Program-made: the position numbers and the translations under genes | The notes under the pieces: generated by a model | Told to the model about the DNA's origin: nothing | The model's database searches: none | What the model saw: the letters and a program-made list of their open reading frames with translations, nothing else | Source: Corynebacterium suranareeae | GTDB taxonomy: Bacteria > Actinomycetota > Actinomycetes > Mycobacteriales > Mycobacteriaceae | Assembly (NCBI RefSeq): GCF_002355155.1 | Contig: NZ_AP017369.1 | Location: 3,162,001 to 3,226,000, forward strand | Length of the DNA stretch: 64,000 nucleotides | Direction: 5' to 3' | Shown: positions 20,094 to 38,922 of the stretch, in pieces | Layout: the number at the start of each line of letters is the position of its first letter | Numbering within the stretch: position 1 is the first letter of the stretch

Positions 20094-21524
20094 ATGTCCC
20101 ACACCTATGGCATAGTGATTTTTGTGAGCACTAAACCTGGAAACCCATCCAATAGGGATGACACAAATAGCTCTATCCCTTCAAAAGATTTGCCCGAAAC
20201 CGTCCTAGACGCGATCGAGGACAACTTCGAGCCACCACTAAATGCCCAAAAGCCAACGGCAGACGCCTCTGATGAGCCATCCGTGACACCGGCAGCTGAT
20301 TCCGAGACCGTCACAGACCGTTCAGTGATTTTGGGACGCGACGGTCGTTGGCTATCCGGCTGGGCGTTGCGTTTCATCGTGCTTGTCATTGCTGGTGTCA
20401 TCGCGCTGCGCATGTTGGGCTTCATCTGGGTCGGCCTTCTCCCGGTAGTCCTCGCGCTTTTAGTCTGCACAGTGCTGTGGCCACCTGTTAAATGGCTGCG
20501 TGACCATAAAGTTCCAGCCGCTTTGGCTGTGGTGATTACCATCCTGGGATTTTTCGCCATCATTGGTGGCGTTTTCGCAGCAATCGCACCGAGCGTGTCA
20601 TCACAGACTAAGGAAGTGGTTGATCAAGCTACAGCGGGCGCCCAAGATCTCATGGATTGGGTCCAAGGACCACCATTTAATTTTGATGTTTCGCAATTTG
20701 AAGGTGCACTCAATGATTTAACATCCATGCTGCAATCACAGTCTTCGACTATTGCTTCTGGTGTTTTCTCCGGCCTATCCACTGCTTCATCAATCTTGGT
20801 CACTCTAGCCGTGATGCTGGTTTTGACTTTCTTCTTCCTCAAAGACGGGCCTCGCTTCCTTCCGTGGATGCGTGGTTTCACCGGCGAAAACGCTGGTTGG
20901 CACCTCACTGAGGTCATGACTCGCACATGGAATACCTTGGCTGGATTCATCCGCGCACAGGCATTGGTCTCCATGGTCGATGCAGTGTTCATCGGCATCG
21001 GTCTTTTAATCCTCGGCGTCCCAATGGCTCTTGCGCTTGCAGTGATCACGTTCTTCGCCGGCTTCATTCCTATCGTCGGTGCCGTGTCTGCAGGTGCTTT
21101 GGCAGTGATCATCGCACTTGTTACCAACGGAGTCACCAACGCGCTGTTAGTTCTCGTGTTGATCCTTGCTGTTCAGCAAATTGAGGGCAATGTTTTGTCC
21201 CCATTCCTGCAGTCCAAGGCCATGAACCTGCACGCAGCGGTTGTGTTGCTCTCCGTTACTGTTGGCTCCACTATGTTCGGCATCATCGGTGCATTCCTGG
21301 CCGTTCCGGTTGCCGCAACTTTGGCAGTGTGGATTCGCTACCACTCCGAAATGGTTGCGCTGCGCACGGGTGAAATCACCATCGATGATATCGAGATAGC
21401 CACAGCCAAAGGCTCCCCAACCAGTATCAGCAGCCAAGAAACACTCGCTGCTATCCGAAGTAGATTTGCCAAACTTGGTCGCAAAAAACCAGAGTCCGAT
21501 GCAGAGAAAACTCCAAGTAAATAA
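20094..21524 (+). CDS. AI-2E/PerM-family transporter-like membrane protein
   Basis: A 476-residue membrane protein of the AI-2E/PerM family. A charged soluble N-terminus (about 1-85) precedes paired membrane helices (about 90-175), a soluble segment, and a C-terminal cluster of helices (about 225-420) with the glycine-rich FFAGFIPIVGAVSAGALAVI motif of the family. The C-terminal 50 residues are soluble and charged. Family members export small molecules or act as sodium/proton antiporters; the role here is unknown. Start is uncertain: the ATG at 20094 or the GTG at 20127 (VSTKPGNPS). Neither has a Shine-Dalgarno. It is divergent from dnaK. Confidence 0.85.
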   Translation: MSHTYGIVIFVSTKPGNPSNRDDTNSSIPSKDLPETVLDAIEDNFEPPLNAQKPTADASDEPSVTPAADSETVTDRSVILGRDGRWLSGWALRFIVLVIAGVIALRMLGFIWVGLLPVVLALLVCTVLWPPVKWLRDHKVPAALAVVITILGFFAIIGGVFAAIAPSVSSQTKEVVDQATAGAQDLMDWVQGPPFNFDVSQFEGALNDLTSMLQSQSSTIASGVFSGLSTASSILVTLAVMLVLTFFFLKDGPRFLPWMRGFTGENAGWHLTEVMTRTWNTLAGFIRAQALVSMVDAVFIGIGLLILGVPMALALAVITFFAGFIPIVGAVSAGALAVIIALVTNGVTNALLVLVLILAVQQIEGNVLSPFLQSKAMNLHAAVVLLSVTVGSTMFGIIGAFLAVPVAATLAVWIRYHSEMVALRTGEITIDDIEIATAKGSPTSISSQETLAAIRSRFAKLGRKKPESDAEKTPSK

Positions 21525-21532
21525 CAACGCTC

Positions 21533-21559
21533 AACCCGATGCCACCACGGCATCGGGTT
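21533..21559. terminator. Bidirectional terminator
   Basis: AACCCGATGCC (21533-21543) pairs with GGCATCGGGTT (21549-21559) across a 5-nt loop and runs into T-rich DNA. It separates two convergent genes. Confidence 0.92.
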
Positions 21560-21562
21560 TTG

Positions 21563-22123
21563 TTATTTAAATACCTGCGCCGCTTCTGCTAATTGCCGAG
21601 CCCCAGCATCAACCGCATCAAACCACGAGCCCGCAGCTTCCTCATCCGCGCTGTCACTAACCTGCTTCAGCAGCGTAATCGGAACACCAAAATGCTTTGC
21701 GACGCCCACCAGCGCCGCCCCCTCCATATCGCACAGGGAGGCCCGGGCAGCCAGTCGGCTGCGCGTTTCAGAATCTGAAATAAAAGAGTTTCCAGTGGCC
21801 AAACTCGCTACCGGAAAATTCCCACTGGTGGCCAATGACGAGCCGTTAGGGCAAGGTTTTCCTGTAATTTCAGCAATCAATTCACTGCTGAAATCATGCT
21901 GCAAAACATGCTCGATCTCATAAACACCCGCTAGTCCATCAACCAATGCTCCCGCCGTACCAATGTTAATGATGCGAGTTGGCAACACTTCCCGAATAGC
22001 CAACTCCTTGGTCAAGATCATGGTCGCTGCATTGGTACCAATTCCGGTCACCAACACTTCACAATCTTCAGGAAGGTGCGTAGCTTCTTCAACAGTGGCA
22101 GATACATAAAGAATTGAAGTCAT
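21563..22123 (-). CDS. MTA/SAH nucleosidase-like phosphorylase-superfamily protein
   Basis: A 186-residue protein of the purine nucleoside phosphorylase superfamily, close to 5'-methylthioadenosine/S-adenosylhomocysteine nucleosidases. IINIGTAGALVDGLAGVYEI (about 51-70) and CDMEGAALVGVAKHFGVPI (about 131-149) carry the conserved Gly and Met-Glu ribose-contact motifs. The usual enzyme is about 230 residues, so this is a short form. It would split MTA or SAH to recycle adenine and sulfur, but the exact substrate is not certain. The start lies downstream of the AlbA-type gene on the same strand with a 46-nt gap. Confidence 0.8.
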   Translation of the reverse strand: MTSILYVSATVEEATHLPEDCEVLVTGIGTNAATMILTKELAIREVLPTRIINIGTAGALVDGLAGVYEIEHVLQHDFSSELIAEITGKPCPNGSSLATSGNFPVASLATGNSFISDSETRSRLAARASLCDMEGAALVGVAKHFGVPITLLKQVSDSADEEAAGSWFDAVDAGARQLAEAAQVFK

Positions 22124-22169
22124 GGTGAACCAGCTTAAACCTGACCACCCTGCAAGGTGCAGTTGTCAC

Positions 22170-23900
22170 TCACCAAGCAACCCATCTGGTTGTCGGCCCT
22201 CGCTGTGGGCCCTCAGGATCAATTCTTGCTTTTTCTAATTGCCGAAGCATCCTGAGCGTTTCAGTAACTTCCATCCTTGGCACTCCGAGTTCATCCGCGA
22301 CTTCTTTGGCCGTTATTTTCTTACCCGCTGACAATTTGTCTTCAATCCAACCTTGAATACCCTGAGGGACTTCCGCTGTTTTTTCTTCTTCACCAAAAGC
22401 CTGCAGAACCAGAGGGCCAGCGGTCCATTCCTTATTCGAATCTCCGACAGCAGCAACTAATCCAATCTCATCGAGCCAATCCATAAGCTCGCTTGCTCCT
22501 AGATCACTACTTTGAGTTTGAGTTCTCACTTCTTGGAGAGTTATTAATGGATGATCAAATAAATGACGTAACACCACAAGTGTCAGCACAGACTGAACTG
22601 CCTCAGGTGAATAATCTTGAGATAGCTGCAAAATCCCTTTAACAAAATTTGTATCCGGTCTGCCTGCGGAAATTATGACTTCCACCGATGTATCTGTTGT
22701 CCTTACAGCCGGTGGACGCCGTCCAGTTGACAACATTGATACCCACATGCGATCAAATCCTCTTGACGATTCTTCTGCAAGGCCCAAAATCCGCATCGCT
22801 GACATAAGTGTACGGTTTCGTGGCTGAGATACCGTCGTAAGCAGATTTTCTTGTGTTACTCCATGGGGCAATGGACCCGGTGACCAAACACTTAGTGTGC
22901 GCGGCGATTGATCAATAACCACTGGATCTGACATGTTCCAGTCGCGGTGTATAAGCGCATTAGCGATTACTTCATCAACAGCTTTGGCTGGAAACGCAGG
23001 GATTGGAATTTCTTGACCATTCTTAAGAAAAATTCGATCGATTTCTGCGGAAGAGGTCTCAGCGATTCGATTCAAAATCTCCTGAAAAGCCAAAACCAAT
23101 GGCGTTGATATTTCCCGCACTCTCGGATCTCCGCCTGGGACAGCCCGATGCAAATGGCGAATGCTTACGCGTCCTGTTGACAGAGGGGCAAAAAGAATCT
23201 CGGCTGCGACTGTTAATTGCCCTGATCGGGTAAGCAGTCCCAATTCTTCTAGAAGGCCTCGCGTGGTTGGAGGTACAGTATCCACCTGCCCTGACACGGT
23301 ACGACGGTCCACCAATAATGCCCGGGCTGCTGCAATTGCCACTGAATCTAGTTCATCAATCGACAATGCCGACTCCACCGCAGTGTGATCGGGGTTCGCG
23401 CGCTGTGCAATAAGCACCCGACGATCTTCAGTAGACATCGGGATGCAATCAGTGCCAATTCTCCTTGTAGCTTGCCCTTTTGTGCGTTCATAAAGGGTGT
23501 ATGCTTTTGGAATTCGAATCCAGATCAATCGTTGATCATTTACGAAAATCTCTTCCGCCTCTACCCGCAAGTTTGGTCGTGTGTTGGCAAAAATTCTCTG
23601 CTCAATCCAGCTCGTCGCTTTTAGCGTCCCTGTGAACGCAGCTGTCCCTGGGGTTTTATCAGCAATCCCAAGAATTAGGTGTGCATCTCCACCAGGCCCA
23701 TTAGCGAAACACACACTAGCGTCAGTTAATACTTCAACTAATTTGGCATCGTTACCTCGCCCTTTAAACGAAGGATCTTCTTTGAAGTCGAGCGTTTCGG
23801 ATTCTTGAGAATCAGCAATTTCACCAGCCTCGATACTCTCGATTGCTCGCAAAATTTCGGGCGGGAGCTTTCTGCCCTGTGGCTCGACAATTGTTGACAT
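22170..23900 (-). CDS. AlbA_2 (Schlafen-type) ATP-binding protein with winged helix
   Basis: A 576-residue multidomain protein. An N-terminal AlbA_2/Schlafen-type domain (about 30-170) has the ESETLDFKEDPSF start and GGDAHLILGIADKT core. A middle part contains an ATPase-like segment (about 305-400) with VDEVIANALIHRDWN, LSVWSPGPLPHGVT and RNRTLMSAMRILGLAEESSRG, as in HATPase_c_4 proteins. The C-terminus has winged-helix-like segments (about 420-575; ITAKEVADELGVPRMEVTET). Such proteins are annotated as regulators and some occur in defence islands; the function here is unknown. Its promoter DNA is packed with palindromic AGTTGTTT/AAACAACT repeats, so it may be autoregulated. It lies next to the Mks plasmid-defence operon. 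Confidence 0.8.
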   Translation of the reverse strand: MSTIVEPQGRKLPPEILRAIESIEAGEIADSQESETLDFKEDPSFKGRGNDAKLVEVLTDASVCFANGPGGDAHLILGIADKTPGTAAFTGTLKATSWIEQRIFANTRPNLRVEAEEIFVNDQRLIWIRIPKAYTLYERTKGQATRRIGTDCIPMSTEDRRVLIAQRANPDHTAVESALSIDELDSVAIAAARALLVDRRTVSGQVDTVPPTTRGLLEELGLLTRSGQLTVAAEILFAPLSTGRVSIRHLHRAVPGGDPRVREISTPLVLAFQEILNRIAETSSAEIDRIFLKNGQEIPIPAFPAKAVDEVIANALIHRDWNMSDPVVIDQSPRTLSVWSPGPLPHGVTQENLLTTVSQPRNRTLMSAMRILGLAEESSRGFDRMWVSMLSTGRRPPAVRTTDTSVEVIISAGRPDTNFVKGILQLSQDYSPEAVQSVLTLVVLRHLFDHPLITLQEVRTQTQSSDLGASELMDWLDEIGLVAAVGDSNKEWTAGPLVLQAFGEEEKTAEVPQGIQGWIEDKLSAGKKITAKEVADELGVPRMEVTETLRMLRQLEKARIDPEGPQRGPTTRWVAW

Positions 23901-23918
23901 AAAACACAGTATAGACAG

Positions 23919-23963
23919 AATAGTTGTTGCAAAGTTGTTTTAAACAACTTTGCAACAACTATT
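23919..23963. promoter_or_regulatory. Perfect 45-bp palindrome upstream of the AlbA_2 gene
   Basis: Positions 23919-23940 and 23942-23963 are exact 22-base reverse complements around one central base. Within each arm AGTTGTT occurs, so several overlapping AGTTGTTT/AAACAACT half-sites are present. The element ends about 20 bp from the gene start. Confidence 0.85.
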
Positions 23964-24090
23964 AAATTACTGCCCTCTAAAACCGCTAATAAAACCAACA
24001 AAGTACCAGATCAGAATAGTTTTTTAGAGCAATTAAAACAGCTCTCAGAACCTTGAATTACCTCCAAAATCCAAGAAATTTTCTGTCAAT

Positions 24091-24107
24091 AGTTGTTTAA
24101 AACAACT
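24091..24107. promoter_or_regulatory. Second AGTTGTTT-N-AAACAACT operator
   Basis: AGTTGTTT and AAACAACT around one base repeat the core of the 45-bp palindrome 130 bp further upstream. Single copies of ACAACT and AAACAACT follow at 24112-24129 and 24190-24210, giving a cluster across about 290 bp. Confidence 0.65.
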
Positions 24108-24199
24108 CTACAACAACTACCAAACAACTAATTCATAGCTACCCAACCGAATCCGCATAAAACACCAGGTCAAAGTGGTTATTAGTAGTAAAACAACTC

Positions 24200-24399
24200 C
24201 AAAACAACTAAAACTCCAGCGCGAATACCCACACCGTCAGAAACTGGAATGGAGGCCAATAGCTGATTCGGATTAGTGGCATGTTCACACTCTTGCGAGC
24301 TGTTTAAACAACCGAATTTTCCACCCAACTTGGGTGAATCTCACTAGAGGAAGATCATCTTGGCTCTCTGACTAGTGAAGATTTTTGACGTGGGCGACA
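24200..24399. other. Intergenic, no gene seen
   Basis: AT-rich DNA without a credible reading frame. GAGCTGTTTAAACAACCGAATTT (24297-24319) has a diverged relative at 24808-24831. Confidence 0.4.
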
Positions 24400-24720
24400 C
24401 TTTCGGCACTATTGTGGCCCAACTCTGCCAACCCACCCCACCCGTTAGCGTTTATCGCTTGTTTAACGCCTCGAGTTTTTCAGATGAGCTTATGTATGCA
24501 CTTCACCTTGAAAACCCCTTAAACGGGCTTCTGGGGAGGTATGACTTTTCAGGGTAAGGGCTTAAATTTGAGAGCGACCAAACCAGGAGACCCAGAATCT
24601 TCAAAAACTTAAATGTTGGGTCTCTGTGTTTGGTATTGAGCGCGATACACCAAACTAGGAGACCCACAAACGTCGAAAACGTGATTTCTGGGTCTCTGTG
24701 TTTGGTCTTATGCCGCCTAG
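24400..24720. repeat. Left copy of a roughly 320-bp inverted repeat
   Basis: The block matches, in inverse orientation, 36955-37290. It holds two tandem hairpins, 24577-24634 and 24649-24706, each with arms of the type ACCAAACNAGGAGACCCA and TGGGTCTCTGTGTTTGGT. Further out, the GTTTATCGCTTGTTTAA and CACTATTGTGGCC segments also have inverted counterparts near 37205 and 37240. Short frames inside both copies encode similar peptides, but only because the DNA repeats. The rest to 24953 is non-coding. Confidence 0.8.
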
Positions 24721-24953
24721 TTGCCGCCAAGCACGCGAACACCTAAATCCGCATGGGCAAACAGCTATTTCAGCACTAATTTGGCTCAAGTCGGGTCATA
24801 CCTTTGCGGGCTGTTTAACCAACCGAATTTCCCACATGCGCATTTGCACCACCTGGAACCTATAAGGCGCTTAGATAAGCGATACTGTGAGGTCACTTTT
24901 CTTTTGCCCCCTTTAGATTCGGTCAAATAGGATGGTTTTTGGAAACCCCACCA

Positions 24954-26063
24954 TCACAAACCGGATGAGGCACCGATGGCTAACTCGATTTCTTCAACAG
25001 CCAGATCAAGTCGGATGCGTTCTTGTTCAATCCGCAGCGCGCCACCGGTGATGAGTTGATCAAGGGCTTCGGATTCGATGTCGTTGAGGTTTTCAAAGCT
25101 TTCGGCGGTAAAGCTGCGGTCGGGAACTCCAAGGTAGCGCCATCTGGAGACGGTTTCGGGGTTCATCAGTACGGACTTGGTGGAGGGGACTCGGCTGCGG
25201 ACGGCGTCCAAAATTTTGAAACCGTCTAGGTCAAGATCTCCCCAGTACAGTAGCCGAACATTAGAAAAGTAGGGTGCTCGAACGATTTCCACTGCGCGAT
25301 AGCCCGCTCCCCAGGCAATGACAACACCTGGCCAGGTGGGTAATGAGAGGAAAGTGTCGAGGTTTTCCACCATCACAATTTTCTTTGCTGGCACAAGCTG
25401 AGAGAGGTTGGAAAGTGGTACTTCTATATCGGTAAGTCCAGCTGGTCCATCCATCACATCAAAGCGGAGTCGAACGCGGACTTCTGGCACACTCAAACCT
25501 AAACCGGGTTCACCACGTTTATCCGCCACCAGAGTTTCAATGAGTGCACGGTGGTTTTCTAACCATTTGGTGTGCACTCCCTCCACCGCGACGGCACGTT
25601 TCAGCAGGCCAGAGTTGGGGTGTTCTAAAAACCAGTCGACAACCAGGGACGCTTTGGCAAGGTCTTCAAAAGAAAGCGAACGCCACAATGAAACATTGCC
25701 TGCCACCACCGAGCCCGTGAAATCCGACAACTGGGCAAAGCGCGCTACCAGGTCGAACCATTCGTCTTCTACCTGAGCAAACGAAACTAACTGTTCAATC
25801 GTGACCAGGTTCAAACGAACTGGGACTTCTGTTTTGCCTAAGCCCACAGGTGACCAGTTCCGCACAGCGTATTCCACATCATCGCGGCCCTCCCACTGGC
25901 GGATAAATTCCTTCGTCGCGTCAATGTCGGCAACTGCTTTGGCTGCTGTTGGTGGGTGCAGGGGCAGGTGTAGGCCTGCAAATTCGCCGAGGAGTAGCTC
26001 GCTTAGGTGCGCGTGGAAGTAGCGCGCGCTGCGGTGGCGGGCGGCGTCGATAAGCAATGTCAT
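24954..26063 (-). CDS. mksG: MksG/JetD plasmid-cleaving nuclease subunit (Wadjet)
   Basis: The 369-residue nuclease subunit of the MksBEFG/Wadjet system. In known systems it is a TOPRIM-fold nuclease that cuts circular plasmid DNA trapped by the SMC-like complex. An N-terminal DUF3322-like region is followed by a C-terminal DUF2220/TOPRIM region. Glu233 in VMVENLDTFLSL and the DxD of LLYWGDLDLDGFKI (about 274-281) match the expected metal-binding residues. It is the last gene of a tight operon, 1 nt after mksB. A 13-mer copy (26044-26056) lies near its start. This part is intact, so the system may be active. Confidence 0.9.
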   Translation of the reverse strand: MTLLIDAARHRSARYFHAHLSELLLGEFAGLHLPLHPPTAAKAVADIDATKEFIRQWEGRDDVEYAVRNWSPVGLGKTEVPVRLNLVTIEQLVSFAQVEDEWFDLVARFAQLSDFTGSVVAGNVSLWRSLSFEDLAKASLVVDWFLEHPNSGLLKRAVAVEGVHTKWLENHRALIETLVADKRGEPGLGLSVPEVRVRLRFDVMDGPAGLTDIEVPLSNLSQLVPAKKIVMVENLDTFLSLPTWPGVVIAWGAGYRAVEIVRAPYFSNVRLLYWGDLDLDGFKILDAVRSRVPSTKSVLMNPETVSRWRYLGVPDRSFTAESFENLNDIESEALDQLITGGALRIEQERIRLDLAVEEIELAIGASSGL

Positions 26064-26064
26064 T

Positions 26065-29000
26065 TTATTTTTCTATCTTTGAAAAGCTGGAGTTTCCTTG
26101 GATCTGGCCTGTGGCGTTGGGTTTTTCGGCGTAGCTGACCACGATGGTGGAGCCGACGTATTCGCCGAGCGTTTGGATGAGTTTCAGCGGGGTGGCGAGC
26201 ACCATGTGGAAGCCGAAACTGTGGAAAACGTTCATGGTTTGGCGGGTAAAGGCAGGGTCGGCGCGGTCGAAGGCTTCATCTAAAATGACGGTCGCGTAGG
26301 TGGGATAGTGAGCGCCGGGCTCAGCCAGTTGATAGCGAAGCGCAGCGGCGAGGCAGAAGAACACCAGCTTTTGGGCTTGACCACCGGAAAGCGACGCGGA
26401 ATCAACGTAGGTGTTTACGGTTGCGCCAGATTGATCGCGTTCAATTCCGATGAAGCGGACGTGCCTGCGGGTATCTAACACGGTGTTGCGCCAGCGGGCA
26501 TCGGCAGATTCTTGGGAGGCGAGCCTGGAGATAATATCGGCGATCAAAGCGTACTTGGAAAACGCCTGTTTTTCATCGCTTGTTCCCAGGTCACCGCTGG
26601 TTACGGCATCGAGTTTCTGCTGGAATTCTTTGACCAAAGGACCACTTTGATCACGGATATCGATGTGCAGATAGCGGCCTTCGTTGAACTCGGATTGCGC
26701 TAATGAGGCATTGATGGGCTCGATGCGTTCTTCGATTTCCCGGCGCGCATCACGTAGACGTCGAGAAATTTGGCCGAGGTTTCGCGTGGACATCTCATTC
26801 ATGAGGCCTAGGAATTTGGTGGTAAATTCTGCGAGACGATCGCTGCGCAGTTCACCAAGCCGGTTGATTGCTTCACCAACAAAGTCAGGTTCTGCTTGCA
26901 AATCGGCACGGTTGGCAGGCCACGTTTCAATATAGCTGCGCAAAATTCCAACGATTTGGCTTTCGCAGCGCCGAAGTTCGGTCTCGTTGGCTTCGATTTG
27001 TTTGTCTAAATCTTCGCGCAACGCAATGGTTTGTTCATCCACATTGGCGGCGTGGACTCTGCGGGTGTTGGAAAGGAAAAGTTTTTCCACTTCGCGTTCA
27101 ATATCTTCTGGAACCTCCGCTACGGGCATGCTGTTGAGACGTTGTAATTCAGCAGTTGCTTGTTCCAGATTAACCACGATGCGAGTTTCTTCATGCTCTG
27201 CACTTTTCAGTAATCGTGTCATGTGCTCGAGCGTCTGCTTCGTGGCCTCGTGGCGGGCGGCAAGTTCTGTGGCTTCAGGAGTGTTGTTGAGTTCTTCTAA
27301 CAATCGATCAAGTTCCGCCACGGCCGCATCTGCAGACTCGGTATCAATCTGCGCCCACGACACCTTCAAAATTTCCAGCGAGACTTGGTAGTGTCGGTCA
27401 AGTTCCCGCAGCTCAGCACGGTTTGCCGCGATGCGGTTATCAGCTGCCTGCACTATTGCTCTAGACACTTTCACCGTTTCACGCAGCGTTTCCACTTTGG
27501 CATCGTTGGTGGATCCCAGACGGTAGGTGGACCGATCCCCCAGTTTGCGGCGGTCATCTTTTTCCCAACGCGTGGTCGGGTCACCGGTTTGTTGTGCAAA
27601 TTTCCGCACGCCCAAAATGGTGACGCCCTGCTCACGAGGCCCCAGTGCAGATAATTCCTCTGGGGTGTGCACGCAGCGAATATTAAAGCGTTTGCCTAAT
27701 TCTTGGTTCACCCAATCTTTAAACGGCGAATCCACAACATCAACTTTTCGGATCATGGAATCCGCTGGATACCGGGGCGTTTTGTACTCCCCCGTTGTCA
27801 CCACACCGTTGAATTTCAGCAGCGCATTCAAATGCTCGCCATTAACCCAATCGCGCACACGCGGCAACAACCCATGTGGAACCAACATTTCCGCAGCAAA
27901 ACCACCCAAAAGGCGCTGCACAACTGGTTCCCACTCTGCGTTATTTGGGTCAATAAGCTCACCGGCAAAAGGCACATCACGTGGGCTGATGCCTAAATCC
28001 TGACACATTCGTTCCCGCACCTGCAGCAAACGATATTCAATATTACTGCTGCCTTTACTCAAAGAAGACAGCTCTTGATCCGCTGCTTTGAACTCATCGT
28101 ATGCACGCGTGCGTTCTTCTACATTCTTTTGACCTGCAGCTTCAAGCTCCTCCCGCGCGCCCGGGTATTCATCAACACTCAGTCGCGCAGCATTGTTGAG
28201 CTCTAATAACTCCTCCGCCGATTCCGGCGCCACACCACCTAGCCCCTTAACCAATGCGTCCAGGCCAGCGCGAGCAGCGCTTATTGTTTTTCGCTTTTCG
28301 ACGGCCCCCTCCCTCTTCGCACTCAGCACACCATGCTGCGCTCCCACAATTTGTTTAACGTTGTCACGTGCGAGGGTTTCCATTTCGCGGGCTCGATCAG
28401 CTTCTATTTTTGCTGATTCCACCTTTGATTTCGCCTGCGCATGCTCCACAGTAAACTTACGGACGAGCGTTTCCTGTTCTTCTTTTTTAATGCGATTTCC
28501 CACCGCGGGAAGTGCTTTTTTCAATGCATTGGCATGGTCTTTGGACTGTGTGGCTTTGTCCCGCCGGTTTCTTAAATCCACCAGTGGGTCTAATGTTTGG
28601 ATCTGTTTCTTGGTGTCTTCTACCTGCTCATAGGCAACTTCCAAATCATGGAATTGAGCCACGGCGGTTTTGGCAATTTCGAAGGTATCGGGTTCAACCA
28701 GCATGTAATCCCTGAACAGGTCATCAAGGCTTTGGAGGTCTTTTGCTGATTGTGCACGGTGTAGCAACAGCAATGCTTCTTCACTGGAGATCCCCAACCG
28801 ACTTCTAAACCGGTTGGAAAATACGGAATGCTGATCACTAAACGTAGCGTTTTTAAACGTGGCTTTAATACGCCGCTTATCGATCCCATCTTTTAAAAAT
28901 TCCAGCAACTCAGTGATATTTTGATCAGCTGAAAACACCCCATACAGCGATGAAATATCTGACCGTAAATTGTGCCCAGATTTTAGATAGAAAATAGCCA

Positions 29001-29388
29001 CCAAGGTGTACTCTTGACCCTCACCATTTGAGTACGTCAACCCGATGATCGAATACGTTGCGCGTGGTCGAAGATAGGTGGACACAATTTGATCTTGCAG
29101 CGGATCTTCCGTTGCTCGCCACGCACCACGAATATAGGTAACTAAACTGCGGCCTTTGTTTCGGGGAGTATTAGCTTGGGCGGCGGAATTGAAACGTAGT
29201 TTTCCTTGTGGAAGAAGCACAGCGGTGATCGCGTCAATAATCGTGGATTTTCCAGATCCTGATCCACCTGTAACTAAAATTCCTTCCCTGGTGACAGGAA
29301 TATCTACAGTTCCATGAAAAGTTCCCCAGTTGATCAGCTGAATTCTAGACAGCCGAAATTGGCCTGGGTGAATGGGATCGGTGCTCAT
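26065..29388 (-). CDS. mksB: MksB/JetC SMC-like ATPase (Wadjet)
   Basis: The 1107-residue SMC-like motor of the MksBEFG complex. The N-terminal head has Walker A GGSGSGKSTIIDAITAVLLP (about 41-60). Long coiled-coil arms flank a hinge region around the middle. The C-terminal head has the ABC signature SASLSGGQAQKLVFFCLAAA (about 1000) and Walker B YATVILDEAFDRAD (about 1040). The head sequence resembles MukB/JetC more than canonical SMC. In known systems it extrudes DNA loops and detects small circular plasmids. It overlaps mksE by 4 nt. Confidence 0.93.
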   Translation of the reverse strand: MSTDPIHPGQFRLSRIQLINWGTFHGTVDIPVTREGILVTGGSGSGKSTIIDAITAVLLPQGKLRFNSAAQANTPRNKGRSLVTYIRGAWRATEDPLQDQIVSTYLRPRATYSIIGLTYSNGEGQEYTLVAIFYLKSGHNLRSDISSLYGVFSADQNITELLEFLKDGIDKRRIKATFKNATFSDQHSVFSNRFRSRLGISSEEALLLLHRAQSAKDLQSLDDLFRDYMLVEPDTFEIAKTAVAQFHDLEVAYEQVEDTKKQIQTLDPLVDLRNRRDKATQSKDHANALKKALPAVGNRIKKEEQETLVRKFTVEHAQAKSKVESAKIEADRAREMETLARDNVKQIVGAQHGVLSAKREGAVEKRKTISAARAGLDALVKGLGGVAPESAEELLELNNAARLSVDEYPGAREELEAAGQKNVEERTRAYDEFKAADQELSSLSKGSSNIEYRLLQVRERMCQDLGISPRDVPFAGELIDPNNAEWEPVVQRLLGGFAAEMLVPHGLLPRVRDWVNGEHLNALLKFNGVVTTGEYKTPRYPADSMIRKVDVVDSPFKDWVNQELGKRFNIRCVHTPEELSALGPREQGVTILGVRKFAQQTGDPTTRWEKDDRRKLGDRSTYRLGSTNDAKVETLRETVKVSRAIVQAADNRIAANRAELRELDRHYQVSLEILKVSWAQIDTESADAAVAELDRLLEELNNTPEATELAARHEATKQTLEHMTRLLKSAEHEETRIVVNLEQATAELQRLNSMPVAEVPEDIEREVEKLFLSNTRRVHAANVDEQTIALREDLDKQIEANETELRRCESQIVGILRSYIETWPANRADLQAEPDFVGEAINRLGELRSDRLAEFTTKFLGLMNEMSTRNLGQISRRLRDARREIEERIEPINASLAQSEFNEGRYLHIDIRDQSGPLVKEFQQKLDAVTSGDLGTSDEKQAFSKYALIADIISRLASQESADARWRNTVLDTRRHVRFIGIERDQSGATVNTYVDSASLSGGQAQKLVFFCLAAALRYQLAEPGAHYPTYATVILDEAFDRADPAFTRQTMNVFHSFGFHMVLATPLKLIQTLGEYVGSTIVVSYAEKPNATGQIQGNSSFSKIEK

Positions 29389-30026
29389 GATTGTTCCTCT
29401 GTACCTGCCGATAGATCTGCCGCTATATTAAATTTCTCGTATTCAGCCCTCACACCAGCTACGGTGTCTGCATCGAAAATCTGGCGCAATGCTGGGGAGA
29501 CTTCGAAGCGTTCTGGGGTTTCTGTCTTTTTGGCTAGGGAATACTGCTCGATGCGTTTGAAGGCTGCATCAAATCGTTTAGCTAGTTTCGCTTCATCGCG
29601 TTCATCTTCCACGCGGTACAGCAGAACTTGTTCGCGGATTTCTTCGCGGTCAACAATGACGCGTTCACCTGGTGGGGCCATGGTGAGTTCTTGGCGCAGA
29701 ATCAAAATGATCAACGTATCAAAGTGGGACAGTGTTTCTGTGCGCAGCACTTTGGGCATGGGTTCAGTTTTGTTATTTCCAACAGCTACGTCTTGCCCAC
29801 CATTTGCGGGACGAGTGAAGGCCACACCGGCGTCTTCATCTAACACCAGCTCTAGGAATAAGTTGTTGAGCACGGCATTCAAGGCTTCTTGGTCAGTCGT
29901 GATTGCTCGCCACACTTCAACGTGTTGCAGCGCATTGACCATTGGTCCTTTAAGTAATTGCACCAGCGCTTTTCTTGATCCAAAGGTCAAGGTGCCGGTA
30001 TCGCCTTCCCACAGTTGATCATCCAT
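29385..30026 (-). CDS. mksE: MksE/JetB accessory subunit (Wadjet)
   Basis: A 213-residue MukE-like (DUF4194-type) kite subunit that binds the kleisin and helps clamp DNA. The chain is largely helical, with EIREQVLLYRVEDERDEAKL near residue 125. The stop overlaps the mksB start by 4 nt and the start lies 3 nt after mksF, so the four products are made in fixed ratio. The name rests mainly on position, size and the unmistakable neighbours. Confidence 0.88.
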   Translation of the reverse strand: MDDQLWEGDTGTLTFGSRKALVQLLKGPMVNALQHVEVWRAITTDQEALNAVLNNLFLELVLDEDAGVAFTRPANGGQDVAVGNNKTEPMPKVLRTETLSHFDTLIILILRQELTMAPPGERVIVDREEIREQVLLYRVEDERDEAKLAKRFDAAFKRIEQYSLAKKTETPERFEVSPALRQIFDADTVAGVRAEYEKFNIAADLSAGTEEQS

Positions 30027-30029
30027 TTC

Positions 30030-31529
30030 TTAGTCCTCGCCTTCTGCAATACCGTCAAAGCCACCAGAGCCACCCAGCCCTCGTATAAACTGCCAACCAC
30101 TAATCCGGCGCCGGTGTGTTGTTCCTTCATGTTCCCACTCCACATTTTGTGGTTGACCAGTAGGGACACCTTCCCGCATCGCCATGTATAACAGCCCAAC
30201 AATGCTGGCTAGGCCTTGCGTTGCTGGTGACTGCACCAATACTTCTGCAATTGTGGCGTGTGATTGTTTTTCTAAAATCACTGCTACGGCATCTTCTAAT
30301 TCTTCGAAATCAATTTCGCTGGCCCGAATCTGCGCCATCAGCGTTTCGGTGTCTATTTCTTGTGATTCCACTGGTTCTGGAAGTTCTTCTACCCGCTCCT
30401 CACCTGGGTTTTTCAGTTTCAGACCCGCGATTGACCTCACATCCATACCGATGCGCACAAGTGGTGTGTCCATATGATTTAGGGAAGTTATTTCACCAGC
30501 TTCGGCAGCTTTGGCCGCAGCATTTCGAGTATCGCGCAGCAGTTGAATCATGCGGCGACTTTCTGCGAATTCTTCCGTGGTGACATAGTGACGCAAACTT
30601 CTGGCAAGTCCTGTCATTTCGCCGTTGACTTCAAAGCTGGCATCTTCCATATCCCTGAAAATCCGATACAACCTGGTGCGTAAAGCAGGATCTAGATCAA
30701 TTGCTTCATCTCTGCCCAATACATCTCTAATCCAGCGATCAATAAGGCTTGAGCGTTCTCGATCTAGCAGGACATCAAAAAAGCTATTGAAGCTGCGCCC
30801 GGCATCTGAATCTCCAATCAGATCAACTCCTTTGAAGATTTCTTCTAATACGTCCCCGCGTGCATCTTCAGGATCTAAAAGTTGTCTACGCAGCTTTCGG
30901 TTCAGATCGCTTAATTCATGCCTTACCCTGGCAAAATCCGCAGGAATCGACGCAGCCAAATCCAAAATATCTGCCACGCGTTCACTAATTTGAGTGGTGG
31001 TAATCACCTCAAATTCGCCCGCGTTCACAGCCTCAATTTGGCGTTCAATGCGTTCGCGTTCTCGTTCTAACTCCGCTAAACGCTTTGCCATGCTTGGGTC
31101 TGATTCCAACGCCAATGTCTGCAACGCCTGGGTTAATGATTCAATCCGTGATGCCGAAATACTCCTATGTGGGTTATCCCAGCGCTGCACGGAATCTAAA
31201 ACCGCCAACAATTCCTCGCTAGGTTCTACGGTTTCACCGGTTTGCGAGCTACCCGGCCGACGCACAAACCACCGCGATTTCACCCAATCATTAATGTAAT
31301 CCGGTGGGCTTTTAGGCAGCTCAAACCCCTCATCACGCAGCACCCGGAAATCCTCACTGAGCAGCTGATATAAATCCGATGCCGGCTTAGCGATAGCCCC
31401 CTGCGGGAAATGCTGCGCCACCACAGCCAACACCACGGGAAAATTATCGCTGCGCAACAACGACAGCTCTAAGGACTCTTGTCTAAATCTTTTAAACCCC
31501 AGTGCGTGCGATATGACGGTCATAGCCAT
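30030..31529 (-). CDS. mksF: MksF/JetA kleisin subunit (Wadjet)
   Basis: A 499-residue MukF-like (DUF3375-type) kleisin, the first gene of the operon. It bridges MksB heads and holds MksE. The N-terminus (about 10-110) is winged-helix-like (DLYQLLSEDFRVLRDEGFEL and SPPDYINDWVKSRWFVRRP). A coiled-coil stretch (about 140-240; KRLAELERERERIERQIEAV) and a C-terminal winged-helix region with the SQTGETVEPSEELLAVL loop earlier complete the family layout. Size and domain plan point to a type I-like Wadjet system; that subtype assignment is an inference. The start is at M1 (31529) or M3. Confidence 0.88.
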   Translation of the reverse strand: MAMTVISHALGFKRFRQESLELSLLRSDNFPVVLAVVAQHFPQGAIAKPASDLYQLLSEDFRVLRDEGFELPKSPPDYINDWVKSRWFVRRPGSSQTGETVEPSEELLAVLDSVQRWDNPHRSISASRIESLTQALQTLALESDPSMAKRLAELERERERIERQIEAVNAGEFEVITTTQISERVADILDLAASIPADFARVRHELSDLNRKLRRQLLDPEDARGDVLEEIFKGVDLIGDSDAGRSFNSFFDVLLDRERSSLIDRWIRDVLGRDEAIDLDPALRTRLYRIFRDMEDASFEVNGEMTGLARSLRHYVTTEEFAESRRMIQLLRDTRNAAAKAAEAGEITSLNHMDTPLVRIGMDVRSIAGLKLKNPGEERVEELPEPVESQEIDTETLMAQIRASEIDFEELEDAVAVILEKQSHATIAEVLVQSPATQGLASIVGLLYMAMREGVPTGQPQNVEWEHEGTTHRRRISGWQFIRGLGGSGGFDGIAEGED

Positions 31530-31647
31530 TGACTATTCCAGACAGGGTGGACACGTGCGTTAAAAGTTGTTCGAATAACAATGAAATTGCTTCTCGACGC
31601 CCTCCCCCACCAGCCCCGACGCTGCCCAGGGGAGGTTCAGGAGAGGC
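31530..31647. other. Short region between mksF and the esterase
   Basis: 118 bp that must hold the Mks promoter and the esterase 3' region. It contains GTTGTTCGAATAAC (31566-31579), an imperfect palindrome, a copy of the 13-mer (31589-31601, minus orientation), and CTCCCC/GGGGAG arms that could end the esterase transcript. Confidence 0.4.
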
Positions 31648-32832
31648 TTAGGCTGGCGAGCGATTAGCCGCTATCCACGCCAACCCATCAATGATTCCTG
31701 CACGCCAACACACATAATCATGCCCGCCACAGTATTCCCTGCTTAAATGCGTGATCTGTCGTTCTTGCAGAATCTGGGCGAATTCTCGGTTTTCGTGAAG
31801 GAGGTACGGTTCTAAAGATCCCACCTCATGAAAAATTGTGATTCCCAAATCAAAGTCTTGCGTTTCCCGATACTTCGCCAGAGTTTCAAACTCTCGATCC
31901 GGCCACCACAACGCAGCTGATTGCACAATGGCATTTTTCACCAGATCCGGTGCATCCAGAACGATATTAGCAGCGGCAAATCCTCCCAAAGAGGCACCAA
32001 CGATGGTGGTGCTTTCCGCCGTGTGTGCAATCGATCGATCCCTCAAGATCTCCAAAACTTCAGTTCTTAGAAAACCGGCCAACTTGTCAGGATCACCAAG
32101 AACTCTTGAGCGATCTTTCGCTGCTGCTGGTGCAAAAAACACACACGTTGTTGGAGGTATCGTTCCATCTGTTTGGGCACTTTCAAGTGCAGGCAACAAT
32201 GAAACATCGTTTAAACAAATCTGCCCATCGCTAATAAAAGCAATGTCTTCAGCCGGGCGCGGTGGGGTATATACCGCGACTTTCATGGGGATATCAAACG
32301 TGGTTGAGGTAAAAGATATCTCTTCTACGCTGCCCTGCAAAAGGTAGGTGGGATCAACCTCATCGGTGTGCGGGGATGGTGTTGCCCCTGGTAGAGCAAG
32401 CACACTCAACCCAAAGGAGGTTTCTTTGAGTGGTTGGAGAGGAATGGACTCACTCATTTTCTTCTTCCACGTGGCACGGTCTTGCCCAATGCTTGGATCC
32501 CACCCTTGCATGGGCAAAAACCCTGCTCCGCACCGTAGTTCACGGGGAAGCAGAAAACTTCCCACATGCCACGCTTCACCCCTCCAGGTGATTTTTTCTA
32601 ATAAGAAAGGCTCAAGGTCTAGCCGAGAAACATGCGTGAGCGTATCTAGATTGAAAATCAAGCGCTCATCAGTGGTGCGGGCTTTTCTAGCCACAGTCAA
32701 TGCGACAGTCTCAGCACCTGCATCATCACTAATCAGAGGCGACTTTTCAATCTCTGCTAAATCTAAAGCATCCCAGTCCGAGCGGATAAGACGTTTCACA
32801 TGCTCAGTGGCTTGTTTCGGCAGGGTAGACAT
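31648..32832 (-). CDS. Fes-like siderophore esterase
   Basis: A 394-residue alpha/beta hydrolase of the enterochelin esterase (Fes) group. The C-terminal half has the nucleophile elbow IVGASLGGFAAANIVLDA (about 275) and a late histidine in REYCGGHDYVCWRAGI (about 375), with the YTPPRP strand near 190 marking the start of the fold. It is expected to open an iron-loaded siderophore in the cytosol to release iron. It lies 21 nt downstream of a siderophore-binding lipoprotein, in an apparent operon under a DtxR-like box. No permease or ATPase gene is nearby. The start is at the ATG (32832), with no strong Shine-Dalgarno visible. Confidence 0.85.
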   Translation of the reverse strand: MSTLPKQATEHVKRLIRSDWDALDLAEIEKSPLISDDAGAETVALTVARKARTTDERLIFNLDTLTHVSRLDLEPFLLEKITWRGEAWHVGSFLLPRELRCGAGFLPMQGWDPSIGQDRATWKKKMSESIPLQPLKETSFGLSVLALPGATPSPHTDEVDPTYLLQGSVEEISFTSTTFDIPMKVAVYTPPRPAEDIAFISDGQICLNDVSLLPALESAQTDGTIPPTTCVFFAPAAAKDRSRVLGDPDKLAGFLRTEVLEILRDRSIAHTAESTTIVGASLGGFAAANIVLDAPDLVKNAIVQSAALWWPDREFETLAKYRETQDFDLGITIFHEVGSLEPYLLHENREFAQILQERQITHLSREYCGGHDYVCWRAGIIDGLAWIAANRSPA

Positions 32833-32853
32833 GGAACCTTCCTTAACAAATAT

Positions 32854-33888
32854 TTAGGCGAAGGATTCTTCGATGGAATCAAGCATCATCATCGCGGAGT
32901 AGTAATCCAGTCGGAAGGTTTCACCTGGCATAAAGTGCACGTTTCCATCCTTGTTTTGCTGCGATTCCGACAAGATTGGGGTGTTTTCAAATGTTTCAAC
33001 GTTGTCTGGGGTAGCGCCAACAATGATCCAAATATCGCCGGGCAGGCCTCGGGTGGCATTTTCAAAAGCAAGGCTGACAATGTCTGGACGGTTTGCTCCC
33101 ATGGAAGTATCACCCTTGAGGTCTTCTGGAATGTCAGTGACATCAAATCCGATTTGTTCCAGGATCCTGGTGTGTGGTGCTTCATGGGTTAGCGCAGCGA
33201 CACCACTTCCACCACCAAAGATAATGAATGGGGAAACTGTTTTATCAGCTGGAATGGTGATGGCTTCTTTGACTTCTTCGAGCCTGTTATCAAACTCTTG
33301 GATAACTTCTTCCGCTTCAGCTTCTTTACCGGTAGCTTCACCTAGTGTTTTGGTGATGTCTTGCCAATCCGCACCGGAGTAGTCCAGTACCAAAACTGGG
33401 GCGATGGTTTTTAGCTGGTCAACCATCTCAAAGCGTGAATCGCCACCGTTTTTGGATACGACGATCAGGTCAGGTTCCAGGGCTGCAGCGCGCTCAATTT
33501 GTGGTTCTGCATTTGACCACAGTGGTTCCACATCAGCTTCTTCCGCAGCTTGCGTCCATTGGCTGAAGTAACCGTACTGGTCAGTCAGTCCTGGATTGTT
33601 TGCTCCGGTGTAGGCGCTGGCAATTACTGGGGCGTCGATAGCCAACAAAGAACCAGTCAGTGTTGTAGACGTGGAAACAATACGCTGAGGCTGCGCATCG
33701 AGCGTGAGCTCACCATCATCGGTGTCAATGGTGCGCGGCCATTCTGTGGAGTCAGAACTACTTGCAGCAGTTTCCGCCTCAGACTCATTTTCGGCGGCAT
33801 TCCCGCTGCACGCTGCCAAACCAAAAACGAGGATGCCGGCAGAAAAGAGGGAGAAGACTTTATTAAAACGCGACCTGACAATGGCCAT
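32854..33888 (-). CDS. Iron-siderophore ABC transporter substrate-binding lipoprotein
   Basis: A 344-residue secreted lipoprotein of the FepB/FecB family (periplasmic-binding-like fold). The signal peptide ends in a lipobox LVFGLAAC (cysteine about 28), so the mature protein is lipid-anchored. The linker is acidic and Ser-rich. TPQRIVSTSTTLTGSLLAI and DLIVVSKNGGDSRFEMVDQL are typical of siderophore binding proteins. It captures a ferric siderophore and hands it to an inner-membrane permease that must be encoded elsewhere. Transcription is likely iron-repressed by DtxR through 33941-33959. Confidence 0.9.
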   Translation of the reverse strand: MAIVRSRFNKVFSLFSAGILVFGLAACSGNAAENESEAETAASSSDSTEWPRTIDTDDGELTLDAQPQRIVSTSTTLTGSLLAIDAPVIASAYTGANNPGLTDQYGYFSQWTQAAEEADVEPLWSNAEPQIERAAALEPDLIVVSKNGGDSRFEMVDQLKTIAPVLVLDYSGADWQDITKTLGEATGKEAEAEEVIQEFDNRLEEVKEAITIPADKTVSPFIIFGGGSGVAALTHEAPHTRILEQIGFDVTDIPEDLKGDTSMGANRPDIVSLAFENATRGLPGDIWIIVGATPDNVETFENTPILSESQQNKDGNVHFMPGETFRLDYYSAMMMLDSIEESFA

Positions 33889-33940
33889 TGGGGAATTAGC
33901 TCCTTCACGTATGACAATAGGCCCCTAATCCACACACGGA

Positions 33941-33959
33941 TTAGGATAGCCTAAATAAA
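33941..33959. promoter_or_regulatory. DtxR-like iron box
   Basis: TTAGGATAGCCTAAATAAA fits the 19-bp DtxR consensus TTAGGTWAGSCTWACCTWA at about 15 of 19 positions. It is about 55 bp upstream of the lipoprotein start, the right place for iron repression. The next stretch to 34217 has no gene; it carries a near copy of the 13-mer at 34161. Confidence 0.7.
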
Positions 33960-34217
33960 CATGAAGAGATGTTAGTTAACCATATGTCATCGGACAATGA
34001 CCCGCCTCACGTAGACGGCACTTCCTCAACAAAACACTGACAGGTTCTGCACACTGTCCCCCACCTGCGCACAATTAGTCATGCCAAAACAATCCTCACT
34101 CACCAGGCCATCCGTTTCGCTATCCATTTTCTGACAACTTTTCATCCGCCCTTAAAAGCTGCTTATCGACGCGCCACCCCAGCCAAACCAGGGCAGCGCA
34201 GTCGGGCGGGCTTCAGG

Positions 34218-35330
34218 TTATTTAAAAGGAGGGAGAACCTTGTTTTCAACCAGGCGATCAAAAAGCTGAAGCAGACGGGTCTCAGTATCTAGGACATCGG
34301 CAAATCCAGCTTGTCGAACTTTAACCGTAGAGGTGATGTTGTCTGCCTCGTGGTGGAAGAGGAAATCACCCACACCCCATCCAACGAGTTTTTCAAATGG
34401 GGTATCAACCAATCCGTGACGCTTAACCAAACGTTCCCACACGTGAGCAAGCTGCGGCATTGTCTCAGCAAGGCTCATTTGTTGTGATGGTGCGTATTCC
34501 ATTCCAAAGTGTGCAGCGAACCGAGGCCACAATTGCGACCAGCGGAACTGGTCACCATTGTTGACGTTGAAAATTTCATTTCGTGCCGATTCCGCCGAAC
34601 CAGCCCACATGGTTGCCCGAGCTAGTAGCTCTGCATCGGTGGTTTGGTACAACACTTCATAAGCTGCGCGTGTGCCAGGAAAACGCATCGGTAGACCAAG
34701 CTCTTTAGAGATCGCTGCATAAACACCAATGACCAACAAAAGGTTCATGGGATTTCCCGTGGCATAGCCAGTGACACCTTCTGGCCGTAGCGCAGTAAAG
34801 CTAAAGCCATCTTGCTGCGCACGTTCACGAAGAATATCTTCCTGAGTGGCGTAAAAGTGCGGCCCGATCAAACGAGGATCGCTTTCTTTAGCTGGGGTGT
34901 TAAAGAAACCTAAGTGATGCCCGTATGCCTTTCCACCTTGGTAGATGGTGACATGCTTCAATGGTGTACCGGCATCGCGCATACCGTTGAGCACGCTGAT
35001 CAAAAGGGCATCGTTTGCCTCGATTAATTCAACATCCGTAGCCTTTTCCACATAGGCTGCAAACACCAAATGGGTGGTGCCTTTAAGACCTTCGGTTGAA
35101 GAAATTAGCTTGGTCAATGCCTGAGTATCAAGCAGGTCAGCGCTATGGTGAGTCCATTCAACGTCAGGAAGCGTGCGTCGACTAATTCCGTGAACTGGCC
35201 ACCCAGCTTGGGCATATTGACGGGCTGCATAGCTACCGATCAAGCCGCCATCACCTACAACAAGTACTTGACCTGCTGGCTGAGGAAGTTCAGTTAGTCC
35301 TAGTCCAGGGGTATTTTCACTGATGTTCAT
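34218..35330 (-). CDS. SDR-family (PRISE-like) NAD(P)-dependent oxidoreductase
   Basis: A 370-residue extended short-chain dehydrogenase with VLVVGDGGLIGSYAARQY (about 23-41) as dinucleotide site. The later pattern VTIYQGGKAYGHHLGFF and SFTALRPEGVTGYATGNPMN resembles progesterone-5-beta-reductase/iridoid-synthase-like enzymes (PRISE), which reduce enone double bonds. Catalytic Tyr/Lys assignment is not certain by eye. It follows the aldo/keto reductase gene by 25 nt, on the same strand, so they likely act together under the MarR regulator at 36387. Confidence 0.8.
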   Translation of the reverse strand: MNISENTPGLGLTELPQPAGQVLVVGDGGLIGSYAARQYAQAGWPVHGISRRTLPDVEWTHHSADLLDTQALTKLISSTEGLKGTTHLVFAAYVEKATDVELIEANDALLISVLNGMRDAGTPLKHVTIYQGGKAYGHHLGFFNTPAKESDPRLIGPHFYATQEDILRERAQQDGFSFTALRPEGVTGYATGNPMNLLLVIGVYAAISKELGLPMRFPGTRAAYEVLYQTTDAELLARATMWAGSAESARNEIFNVNNGDQFRWSQLWPRFAAHFGMEYAPSQQMSLAETMPQLAHVWERLVKRHGLVDTPFEKLVGWGVGDFLFHHEADNITSTVKVRQAGFADVLDTETRLLQLFDRLVENKVLPPFK

Positions 35331-35355
35331 TTTTCTTTTTCTCCGCCTAGTTGGT

Positions 35356-36285
35356 TTAAGCGAAAGACTTTGAAGCTTCGTCGAGCGCTGCTACCTCGGC
35401 GTCGCTAAGCTTCACGTCAGCGATAGCAAGCAGTGCTGGAAGCTGCGCAGGCGTAGATACGGAAGCGATCGGTGCGGTAACACCCTTGGCTAGCTGCCAT
35501 GCCAGTGCGACGGTTGATGGTTCAACATTTCGTTTTTCTGCAAGCTCAACCAGAGCATCAACAACGGCAAAACCTTCTGGGGTTGCATAGCCTTCGACAA
35601 ATCCCTGGCGGTTTCGACCTTCCAGATCCGCAGGAGTGCGGTAGGTACCACTGAGGAAACCGGATGCTAGTGCAAAGTATGGGAAGGTTGCAGCGCCATA
35701 TTCGCGAGCAAGTGGCAGGTAGGATTTCTCAAAATCACTGCGGTGCACAAGGTTGTACTGTGGCTGGATTGCGGCTGGCAGAGTCAAGTTGTTGGCAGTA
35801 GCGTATTCAAACCATTCGCGGATGCGCTCTGGAGAGTAATTGGAAAGTGCAATGTGGCGCACCTTTCCGGACTCCACTAGCGAGTGGTAGGTCTTTGCCT
35901 GATCTGCGATGGCAACATTTTCATCATCGTAGTGGCTGTAGTAAATGTCGATGTAGTCAGTCTGCAGACGCTTGAGGGATTCTTCTAGCGCAGCAACAAC
36001 GGTGTCATGCTGCTGGTTGTTGTAAGGAGCTAGGCCACCCATCTTGGTAGCAAGCACAACTTTGTCACGGTTTCCGCGAGCCTTAAACCACTCACCTAAA
36101 ACCTTTTCTGAATCACCACCAGTTCCATCGCCCGCCCATGATGCGTAAAGGTCAGCAGTATCAATGTAAGTACCACCCGCTGCAACGAATGCATCGAGTA
36201 CTGCAAAAGAGGTTTCTTGGTCGGAAGTCCAACCAAAGGTGTTGCCACCGAGAACGAGAGGAACGGAAAGTGCTGGAAGAGACAT
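35356..36285 (-). CDS. Aldo/keto reductase
   Basis: A 309-residue TIM-barrel NADPH-dependent oxidoreductase. GGTYIDTADLYASWAGDG (about 38-55) contains the catalytic Asp-Tyr, KVVLATKMGG the Lys, and DIYYSHYDD the position usually held by His. The C-terminal strand VTAPIASVSTPAQL binds the cofactor. The ATG at 36285 has AAGGAG upstream and is preferred over the earlier frame start. It is divergent from a MarR regulator, with three operator-like sites between them, so it is probably induced by a toxic or redox-active compound. Confidence 0.92.
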   Translation of the reverse strand: MSLPALSVPLVLGGNTFGWTSDQETSFAVLDAFVAAGGTYIDTADLYASWAGDGTGGDSEKVLGEWFKARGNRDKVVLATKMGGLAPYNNQQHDTVVAALEESLKRLQTDYIDIYYSHYDDENVAIADQAKTYHSLVESGKVRHIALSNYSPERIREWFEYATANNLTLPAAIQPQYNLVHRSDFEKSYLPLAREYGAATFPYFALASGFLSGTYRTPADLEGRNRQGFVEGYATPEGFAVVDALVELAEKRNVEPSTVALAWQLAKGVTAPIASVSTPAQLPALLAIADVKLSDAEVAALDEASKSFA

Positions 36286-36319
36286 CGAAAACTCCTTAGG
36301 TTGATTAGAACACGTTGAC

Positions 36320-36376
36320 TTGACGTGTAAAGTCAGGATAGGCCAACTTAGTTGACGCGTCAAGTTGACATGTAAA
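36320..36376. promoter_or_regulatory. Three MarR-type operators in the divergent promoter
   Basis: TTGACGTGTAAA (36320-36331), TTGACGCGTCAA (36352-36363, perfect palindrome) and TTGACATGTAAA (36365-36376) share the pattern TTGACNNGTMAA. They fill the 101 bp between the aldo/keto reductase and the MarR gene, so MarR probably represses both. Confidence 0.75.
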
Positions 36377-36386
36377 GTTTCACGAT

Positions 36387-36878: not shown

Positions 36879-36954
36879 CGCTCTACGCCAACCGCTCACG
36901 ATATAAAACCCGACTTGGGCCAACTTAGAGCCGAAATAACTGCTTGCCTCGCGC

Positions 36955-37290
36955 ACCCCATTGCGGCATAAGACCAAACCAGGAGACCCAGAAATCACGT
37001 TTTCTATGTTTGTGGGTCTCCTGGTTTGGTGGATCGCTCTCAATACCAAACACAGAGACCCAACATTTAAGTTTTCGAAGATTCTGGGTCTCCTGGTTTG
37101 GTCGCTCTCAAATCTAAGCCCTTACCCTAAAAAGTCATACCTCCCCAGAAGCGCTTCTAAGAGGTTTTCAGGGCTTTGCCCATACAAATACCCATTCGAA
37201 AAACCCAAGGCCTTAAACAAGCGATAAACGCTCACGCGTTAGTCGGGCTTGCCGAGTTCGGCCACATTAGTGCCGAAATTACCACCCAAG
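36955..37290. repeat. Right copy of the roughly 320-bp inverted repeat
   Basis: The inverse counterpart of 24400-24720, with the hairpins at 36973-37030 and 37045-37102, then TCGCTTCTAAGAG-type DNA at 37148-37190 and TTAAACAAGCGATAAACGC at 37205-37223. Between the copies lie the Mks operon and five more genes. The remaining 36879-36954 and 37291-37440 hold no gene; the latter has GAGTTCCACGAAAG and inverted arms (37357-37388) that may end adhA. Confidence 0.78.
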
Positions 37291-38911: not shown

Positions 38912-38922
38912 GGTGCTAAGAA

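Follow-up and report, generated by a model that had tools for sequence, protein, structure and literature searches.

The window, the whole stretch of DNA analyzed here, comprises 64,000 nucleotides of Corynebacterium suranareeae (positions 3,162,001-3,226,000 of a single-contig genome of 3,537,507 bp), and positions below are those of the window. On its minus strand, at 31529-24954, lies a four-gene mks operon in which the genes follow one another in the order F-E-B-G in the direction of transcription:

30030 to 31529, minus strand: mksF/jetA, a kleisin of 499 amino acids with a DUF3375 domain (PF11855, E = 7.6e-135; JetA1, E = 1.4e-177)
29385 to 30026, minus strand: mksE/jetB, a kite subunit of 213 amino acids with a DUF4194 domain (PF13835, E = 7.2e-41; MksE PF21980, E = 4.5e-09; JetB1, E = 5.3e-81)
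26065 to 29388, minus strand: mksB/jetC, an SMC-like ATPase of 1107 amino acids (JetC1, E = 0, 1254.5 bits; solved JetC chains 8as8 and 8dk2), with Walker A at residues 41-48, LSGGQ at 1000-1004 and Walker B at 1034-1038
24954 to 26063, minus strand: mksG/jetD, a TOPRIM nuclease of 369 amino acids with DUF3322 and JetD_C domains (JetD1, E = 2.2e-88; MksG chain 8b7f, E = 1.6e-188), its residues compared below with those named in PMC10123090

The genes are tightly packed, as a first-pass annotation of this DNA had described them, with a gap of 3 nt between F and E, a 4-nt overlap between E and B and a gap of 1 nt between B and G, and all four reading frames are uninterrupted. The annotation's naming of the products as a kleisin, a kite subunit, an SMC-like ATPase and a TOPRIM nuclease agrees with the Pfam matches, all of which exceed their cut-offs: DUF3375 (450.9 bits against 28.6), DUF4194 (140.1 against 32.7), AAA_29 and SbcC_Walker_B in MksB (86.9 and 85.8, each against 27), and DUF3322 and JetD_C in MksG (121.4 and 153.8, each against 22). 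NCBIfam provides no model above cut-off for any of the four Mks proteins. The best PADLOC matches are all to Wadjet type I, with 589.2 bits for JetA1, 269.3 bits for JetB1, and JetC1 and JetD1 scoring as listed above; with all four JetA-JetD families matched and no frameshift seen, the complete MksBEFG operon proposed from the sequence is borne out. A genome search finds a single mksB match in this genome.

The catalytic motifs that the same annotation had read as intact can all be located. In MksB, GGSGSGKS begins at residue 41, LSGGQ at 1000 and VILDE at 1034, and in MksG the motif VENLDT places a Glu at 233 while GDLDLDG gives D276-x-D278. These three MksG residues align with 8b7f and with the solved JetD 8q72, which bears E248A at the position aligned with E233. 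The putative metal ligands are E233 and D276 (D278), with Y255 and E346/E348 likewise listed. According to Weiss et al. 2023 (PMC10123090), C. glutamicum MksG is impaired by E236A, D279A and Y258A, and residues E349, E351, R156 and K166 are also named; alignment indicates that all seven are kept in the window protein, as E233, D276, Y255, E346, E348, R156 and K166. The operon has the sequence features of Wadjet type I (JetABCD), namely a JetA with DUF3375, a JetB with DUF4194, a JetC with Walker A, signature and Walker B, and a JetD with DUF3322, JetD_C and the Glu and Asp residues, encoded adjacently in the order A-B-C-D on one strand. Among the Wadjet type I systems with solved parts, sequence matches are found for JetA (8as8, 8dk1), JetC (8as8, 8dk2) and JetD (7til, 8q72), these solved JetABCD parts being distant in sequence, and a sequence search with the window MksE/JetB at E <= 0.001 returns no solved chain.

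The nearest of the compared genomes, G065, is almost certainly C. glutamicum; a full-length match (828 bits) links its MksG to the solved C. glutamicum protein 8b7f. Identities between the window and G065 proteins are 88.8% for MksF, 91.9% for MksE, 88.3% for MksB and 80.0% for MksG. The corresponding dN/dS ratios are 0.045, 0.034, 0.075 and 0.135, compared with 0.042-0.088 for eight flanking genes, and these are rough values as several dS estimates lie near or above 1. MksG is the least conserved subunit, and the ratios point to purifying selection on all four genes. In a tree of 23 MksB sequences, made up of the window and the 22 loci, out of 44 tried, that passed a motif filter, the window and G065 form one clade with a support of 100/100. 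The tree leaves four forks open and brings some long branches together, and this pairing is all that we rely on. Sister position in the tree, together with a chromosomal site in common, identifies the G065 genes as orthologs. As described in PMC7083940 and PMC10123090, and as represented by 8b7f, the C. glutamicum MksBEFG operon (cg3106-cg3103) shares the gene set, order and site with the window at 80-92% identity, with the seven MksG residues kept. The window MksG differs in lacking three residues after position 187 and in its C-terminus, and the window site additionally carries an AlbA_2 gene and a siderophore-type cluster.

The locus thus very probably holds a chromosomal MksBEFG operon of Wadjet type I (JetABCD), complete and conserved, orthologous to C. 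glutamicum cg3106-cg3103 and at the same site, and nothing found in the sequence speaks against this assignment. Both the family and the close C. glutamicum counterpart, an experimentally studied operon, are already known, and the first-pass annotation was right not to call the family new; the locus is an ordinary find. With it, a studied plasmid-defense system has a further, well-supported sister copy; alone it changes no view of the family.

The operon occupies a variable site between two conserved genes, the features of which are as follows:

21563 to 22123, minus strand: nucleosidase of the PRK05634 type, bordering the variable site on the left and adjoining mksG in G065 and adhA in G034 (NCBIfam NF004168, 272 bits; cut-off 129)
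22170 to 23900, minus strand: gene with AlbA_2 and HATPase_c_4 domains (Pfam; 576 amino acids) between mksG and the nucleosidase gene, with a weak GntR match below cut-off
24391 to 24716, plus strand: copy of a repeat of about 350 bp, with an inverted copy at 36963-37288
31567 to 31581, plus strand: TTGTTCGAATAACAA, a loose TTGTT..AACAA palindrome 38 bp upstream of the mksF start
31648 to 36878, insert between mksF and adhA: siderophore-type cluster with an enterochelin-esterase-like gene (31648-32832), a FepB-like gene (32854-33888) and then three ORFs
37441 to 38574, minus strand: adhA, a zinc-type alcohol dehydrogenase (ADH_N and ADH_zinc_N) with an uncertain start codon, the right flank, 96-98% identical in G065, G034 and G038

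The three further ORFs of the insert, up to 36878, presumably encode an epimerase, an aldo/keto reductase and a MarR regulator, which they resemble. The order of the flanking genes for Hsp70, GrpE, DnaJ and aldehyde dehydrogenase is common to the window, G065, G034 and G038, and an adhA gene adjoining the C. glutamicum mks operon is also recorded in PMC10123090. The spacing between the nucleosidase gene and adhA is 15.3 kb in the window genome, 112 bp in G034 and 887 bp in G038, and in G065 the mks operon alone is found between them. The four Mks proteins have no match at E <= 1 in the G034 site region; in that of G038 only MksG matches, in two short stretches outside the gap (E 0.044 and 0.53), and a search of the gap itself gave one 34-residue MksB match (E 0.29) that we take as chance. 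Genome searches of G034 and G038 find no MksB, JetD_C or DUF3375 matches, and the siderophore-type insert is likewise unmatched at this site in G065, G034 and G038. Because the window inserts are absent from these three genomes and mks is missing from G034 and G038, the nucleosidase-adhA site is variable. Either mks was acquired by a common ancestor of the window and G065, or the others have lost it. The mks-free sites of the two relatives make gain and loss comparable at one locus.

The two inverted copies of the repeat of about 350 bp bracket the block containing the mks operon and the siderophore-type cluster. The repeat has two conserved hairpin-like palindromes (ACCAAACCAGGAGACCCA...TGGGTCTC..GTTTGGT) and was scored at 40 places in the window genome at 79-100% identity, the query included, these being 40 of 85 first-look candidates; matches to the same query in the relatives are few: four, short and weak, in G065 and a single one in G038, with G034 yielding none. 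The window has no Rfam or tRNA matches, and promoter- and terminator-like sites in 21000-39000 are not commoner than in shuffled sequence. The SOS box TCGAACANNTGTTCGA, with up to three mismatches allowed, has six matches in the window against 3.05 expected, none of them in the operon or its promoter.

A search of 72,556 plasmid records for a plasmid-borne Wadjet system returned one long match, to the 42-kb NZ_CP090424.1 titled as a Stenotrophomonas maltophilia plasmid, and one other of 207 bp. The long record consists of C. glutamicum-like chromosomal DNA, with relatives of dnaK, grpE, dnaJ, the aldehyde dehydrogenase gene, adhA and further chromosomal genes in window order, many of them split over frames, and for these reasons it most likely represents contamination rather than a mobile Wadjet system.

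Within the genus MksB is patchily distributed, occurring in 88 of 242 Corynebacterium genomes, and JetD_C in 74; both are present in 71 genomes, MksB only in 17 and JetD_C only in three. The next MksB relatives after G065 (57-62%) are those of G031, G077, G093, G076, G199 and G122, in which mksB lies far from the nucleosidase gene or on another contig. This separation fits the spread of mks by transfer that is proposed in PMC10123090. We compared the presence of MksB with that of extra contigs, a crude stand-in for plasmids, in the 123 of 242 genomes with at most five contigs, counts being copied by hand and kinship ignored, and with G236 dropped (one contig, 77% complete, MksB in two pieces). 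Genomes of more than one contig number 10 among the 39 with MksB and 25 among the 84 lacking it (Fisher p 0.67); for MksB together with JetD_C the figures are eight of 33 against 27 of 90 others (p 0.65). This result goes against a simple reading in which hosts are kept plasmid-free, though a contig need not be a plasmid and Wadjet systems probably spare large circles, and a strong anti-plasmid effect is invisible at this coarse level.

By analogy with C. glutamicum, MksB would build, with the kleisin MksF and the kite MksE, a motor driven by ATP and loaded onto circular DNA; where DNA is not handled like chromosomal DNA, the complex would bring to it the MksG TOPRIM dimer held by MksF, and MksG would make a metal-dependent break, such that susceptible plasmids would be lost or kept at lower copy number. 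The nuclease and ATPase activities, the contact between MksF and MksG, DivIVA-directed polar placement and the plasmid effect are all presumed here from the work on C. glutamicum, in which, according to PMC10123090, loss of mksB, mksF or mksG raises pBHK18 and not pJC1 and the complex is placed at the poles via DivIVA. The first-pass statement that such systems cleave small circular plasmids is therefore too general for this lineage: an effect on some plasmids stands, and others are spared, among them vectors built on native C. glutamicum plasmids (PMC7083940) and pJC1 (PMC10123090). One further reading is that MksBEFG of the C. glutamicum lineage is a replicon-selective governor of copy number at a fixed chromosomal site and not a general plasmid barrier; it fits the published sparing of native-plasmid vectors and the lack of a genus-wide link between MksB and extra contigs, and we put it forward as a doubtful possibility. 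The operon may bear on the ease of plasmid maintenance in C. suranareeae.

An SMC-like ATPase at the core of the operon also invites the reading that these four genes are chiefly a chromosome-organizing condensin like MukBEF or MksBEF, with the nuclease as an accessory. The MukB match of MksB is below cut-off (19.9 bits against 23), and other corynebacteria encode MksF-E-B where the genome has no JetD_C match, so that the motor may act nuclease-free there. Kleisin, kite and SMC subunits are indeed common to the window and to the nuclease-free MksBEF condensins as characterized in PMC7083940, but those lack MksG, whereas MksG is present here, conserved, under selection and with all seven compared residues kept. 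In addition, deletion of mksB in C. glutamicum leaves the chromosome contact map wild-type-like while some plasmids rise in number (PMC7083940), and we consider a mainly chromosomal role highly improbable. Likewise, the faster drift of MksG than of the other subunits might be taken to indicate an operon that is decayed or silent, its ORFs intact with no working system behind them, yet dN/dS is well below 1 in all four genes, the ORFs are uninterrupted and the motifs are kept, and decay is scarcely credible. Purifying selection instead supports the functionality of the MksBEFG operon, and we infer from its sequence that this copy is probably expressed and active.

The AlbA_2 gene could in principle be a regulator or helper of the system, which would be compatible with the MksBEFG assignment. 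It is on the strand of mksG and adjoins it in the window, but about 1.05 kb including a repeat copy separates the two genes, and G065, which has a working four-gene system, has no AlbA_2 homologue; at E <= 1e-20 the gene has no match in G065, G034 or G038, nor is there one at the site. Homologues are present in 83 of 242 genomes at this threshold. In seven genomes compared by hand they lie about 10 (G146), 20 (G033), 25 (G092), 31 (G112), 41 (G093), 46 (G080) and 64 kb (G077) from mksB; the four shortest distances speak for an association, and the remoteness of the best homologues in G077 and G093 (about 64 and 41 kb) speaks against it. The AlbA_2 gene is preceded by strict GTTGTTT..AAACAAC palindromes at 23933 and 24091, and the gap between mksG and the nucleosidase gene in G065 has a similar palindrome that could be a relic of an AlbA_2 upstream region; upstream of mksF there is the looser palindrome listed above, but no strict match is found near that gene. 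Loose TTGTT..AACAA matches number six in the window against 1.23 expected, a count reached in one of 100 shuffles, and this palindrome occurs about 35-57 bp upstream of seven of ten AlbA_2 homologues examined (L132, L134 and L135 are without it); since the TTGTTT-N-AAACAA form was chosen after viewing the window, these upstream matches are a lead and not a test. The palindrome matches are consistent with a possible regulatory tie between the AlbA_2 gene and mksF, and a role for its product as the system's regulator or helper is very unlikely.

We note that the TTGTTT-N-AAACAA palindrome at 23921-24119, upstream of the AlbA_2 gene, is perhaps an operator.

Of 20 related loci examined, 16 have the same F-E-B-G arrangement, and in the other four tblastn finds no MksG. 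The 17 MksB-bearing genomes, of 88, without a JetD_C match could make it testable how frequent corynebacterial MksBEF motors without nuclease are, and why, a missing PF09983 match leaving room for an unrelated nuclease. Among ten loci from such genomes whose surroundings were viewed (including L098 and L177-L181, which likewise show MksF-E-B with no recognizable MksG), two need care: in G055 (L098:12454-13964) the kleisin MksF is divided between two ORFs, and in G025 a same-strand ORF of 209 amino acids with no Pfam match follows MksB. Clear F-E-B sets without a recognizable G are found in G109 (L086:8284-15352), G190 (L087:8480-14570), G041 (L095) and G209 (L182). G109 is one contig and 100% complete, and G190 is 53% complete; in both the MksB motifs are intact and a JetD_C match is absent. 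The MksE proteins of these two genomes have a long N-terminal extension, which places the beginning of DUF4194 at residue 532 (of 717) and 218 (of 403), respectively, and the extension is acidic, with 23-25% Asp plus Glu against 5-6% Lys plus Arg.
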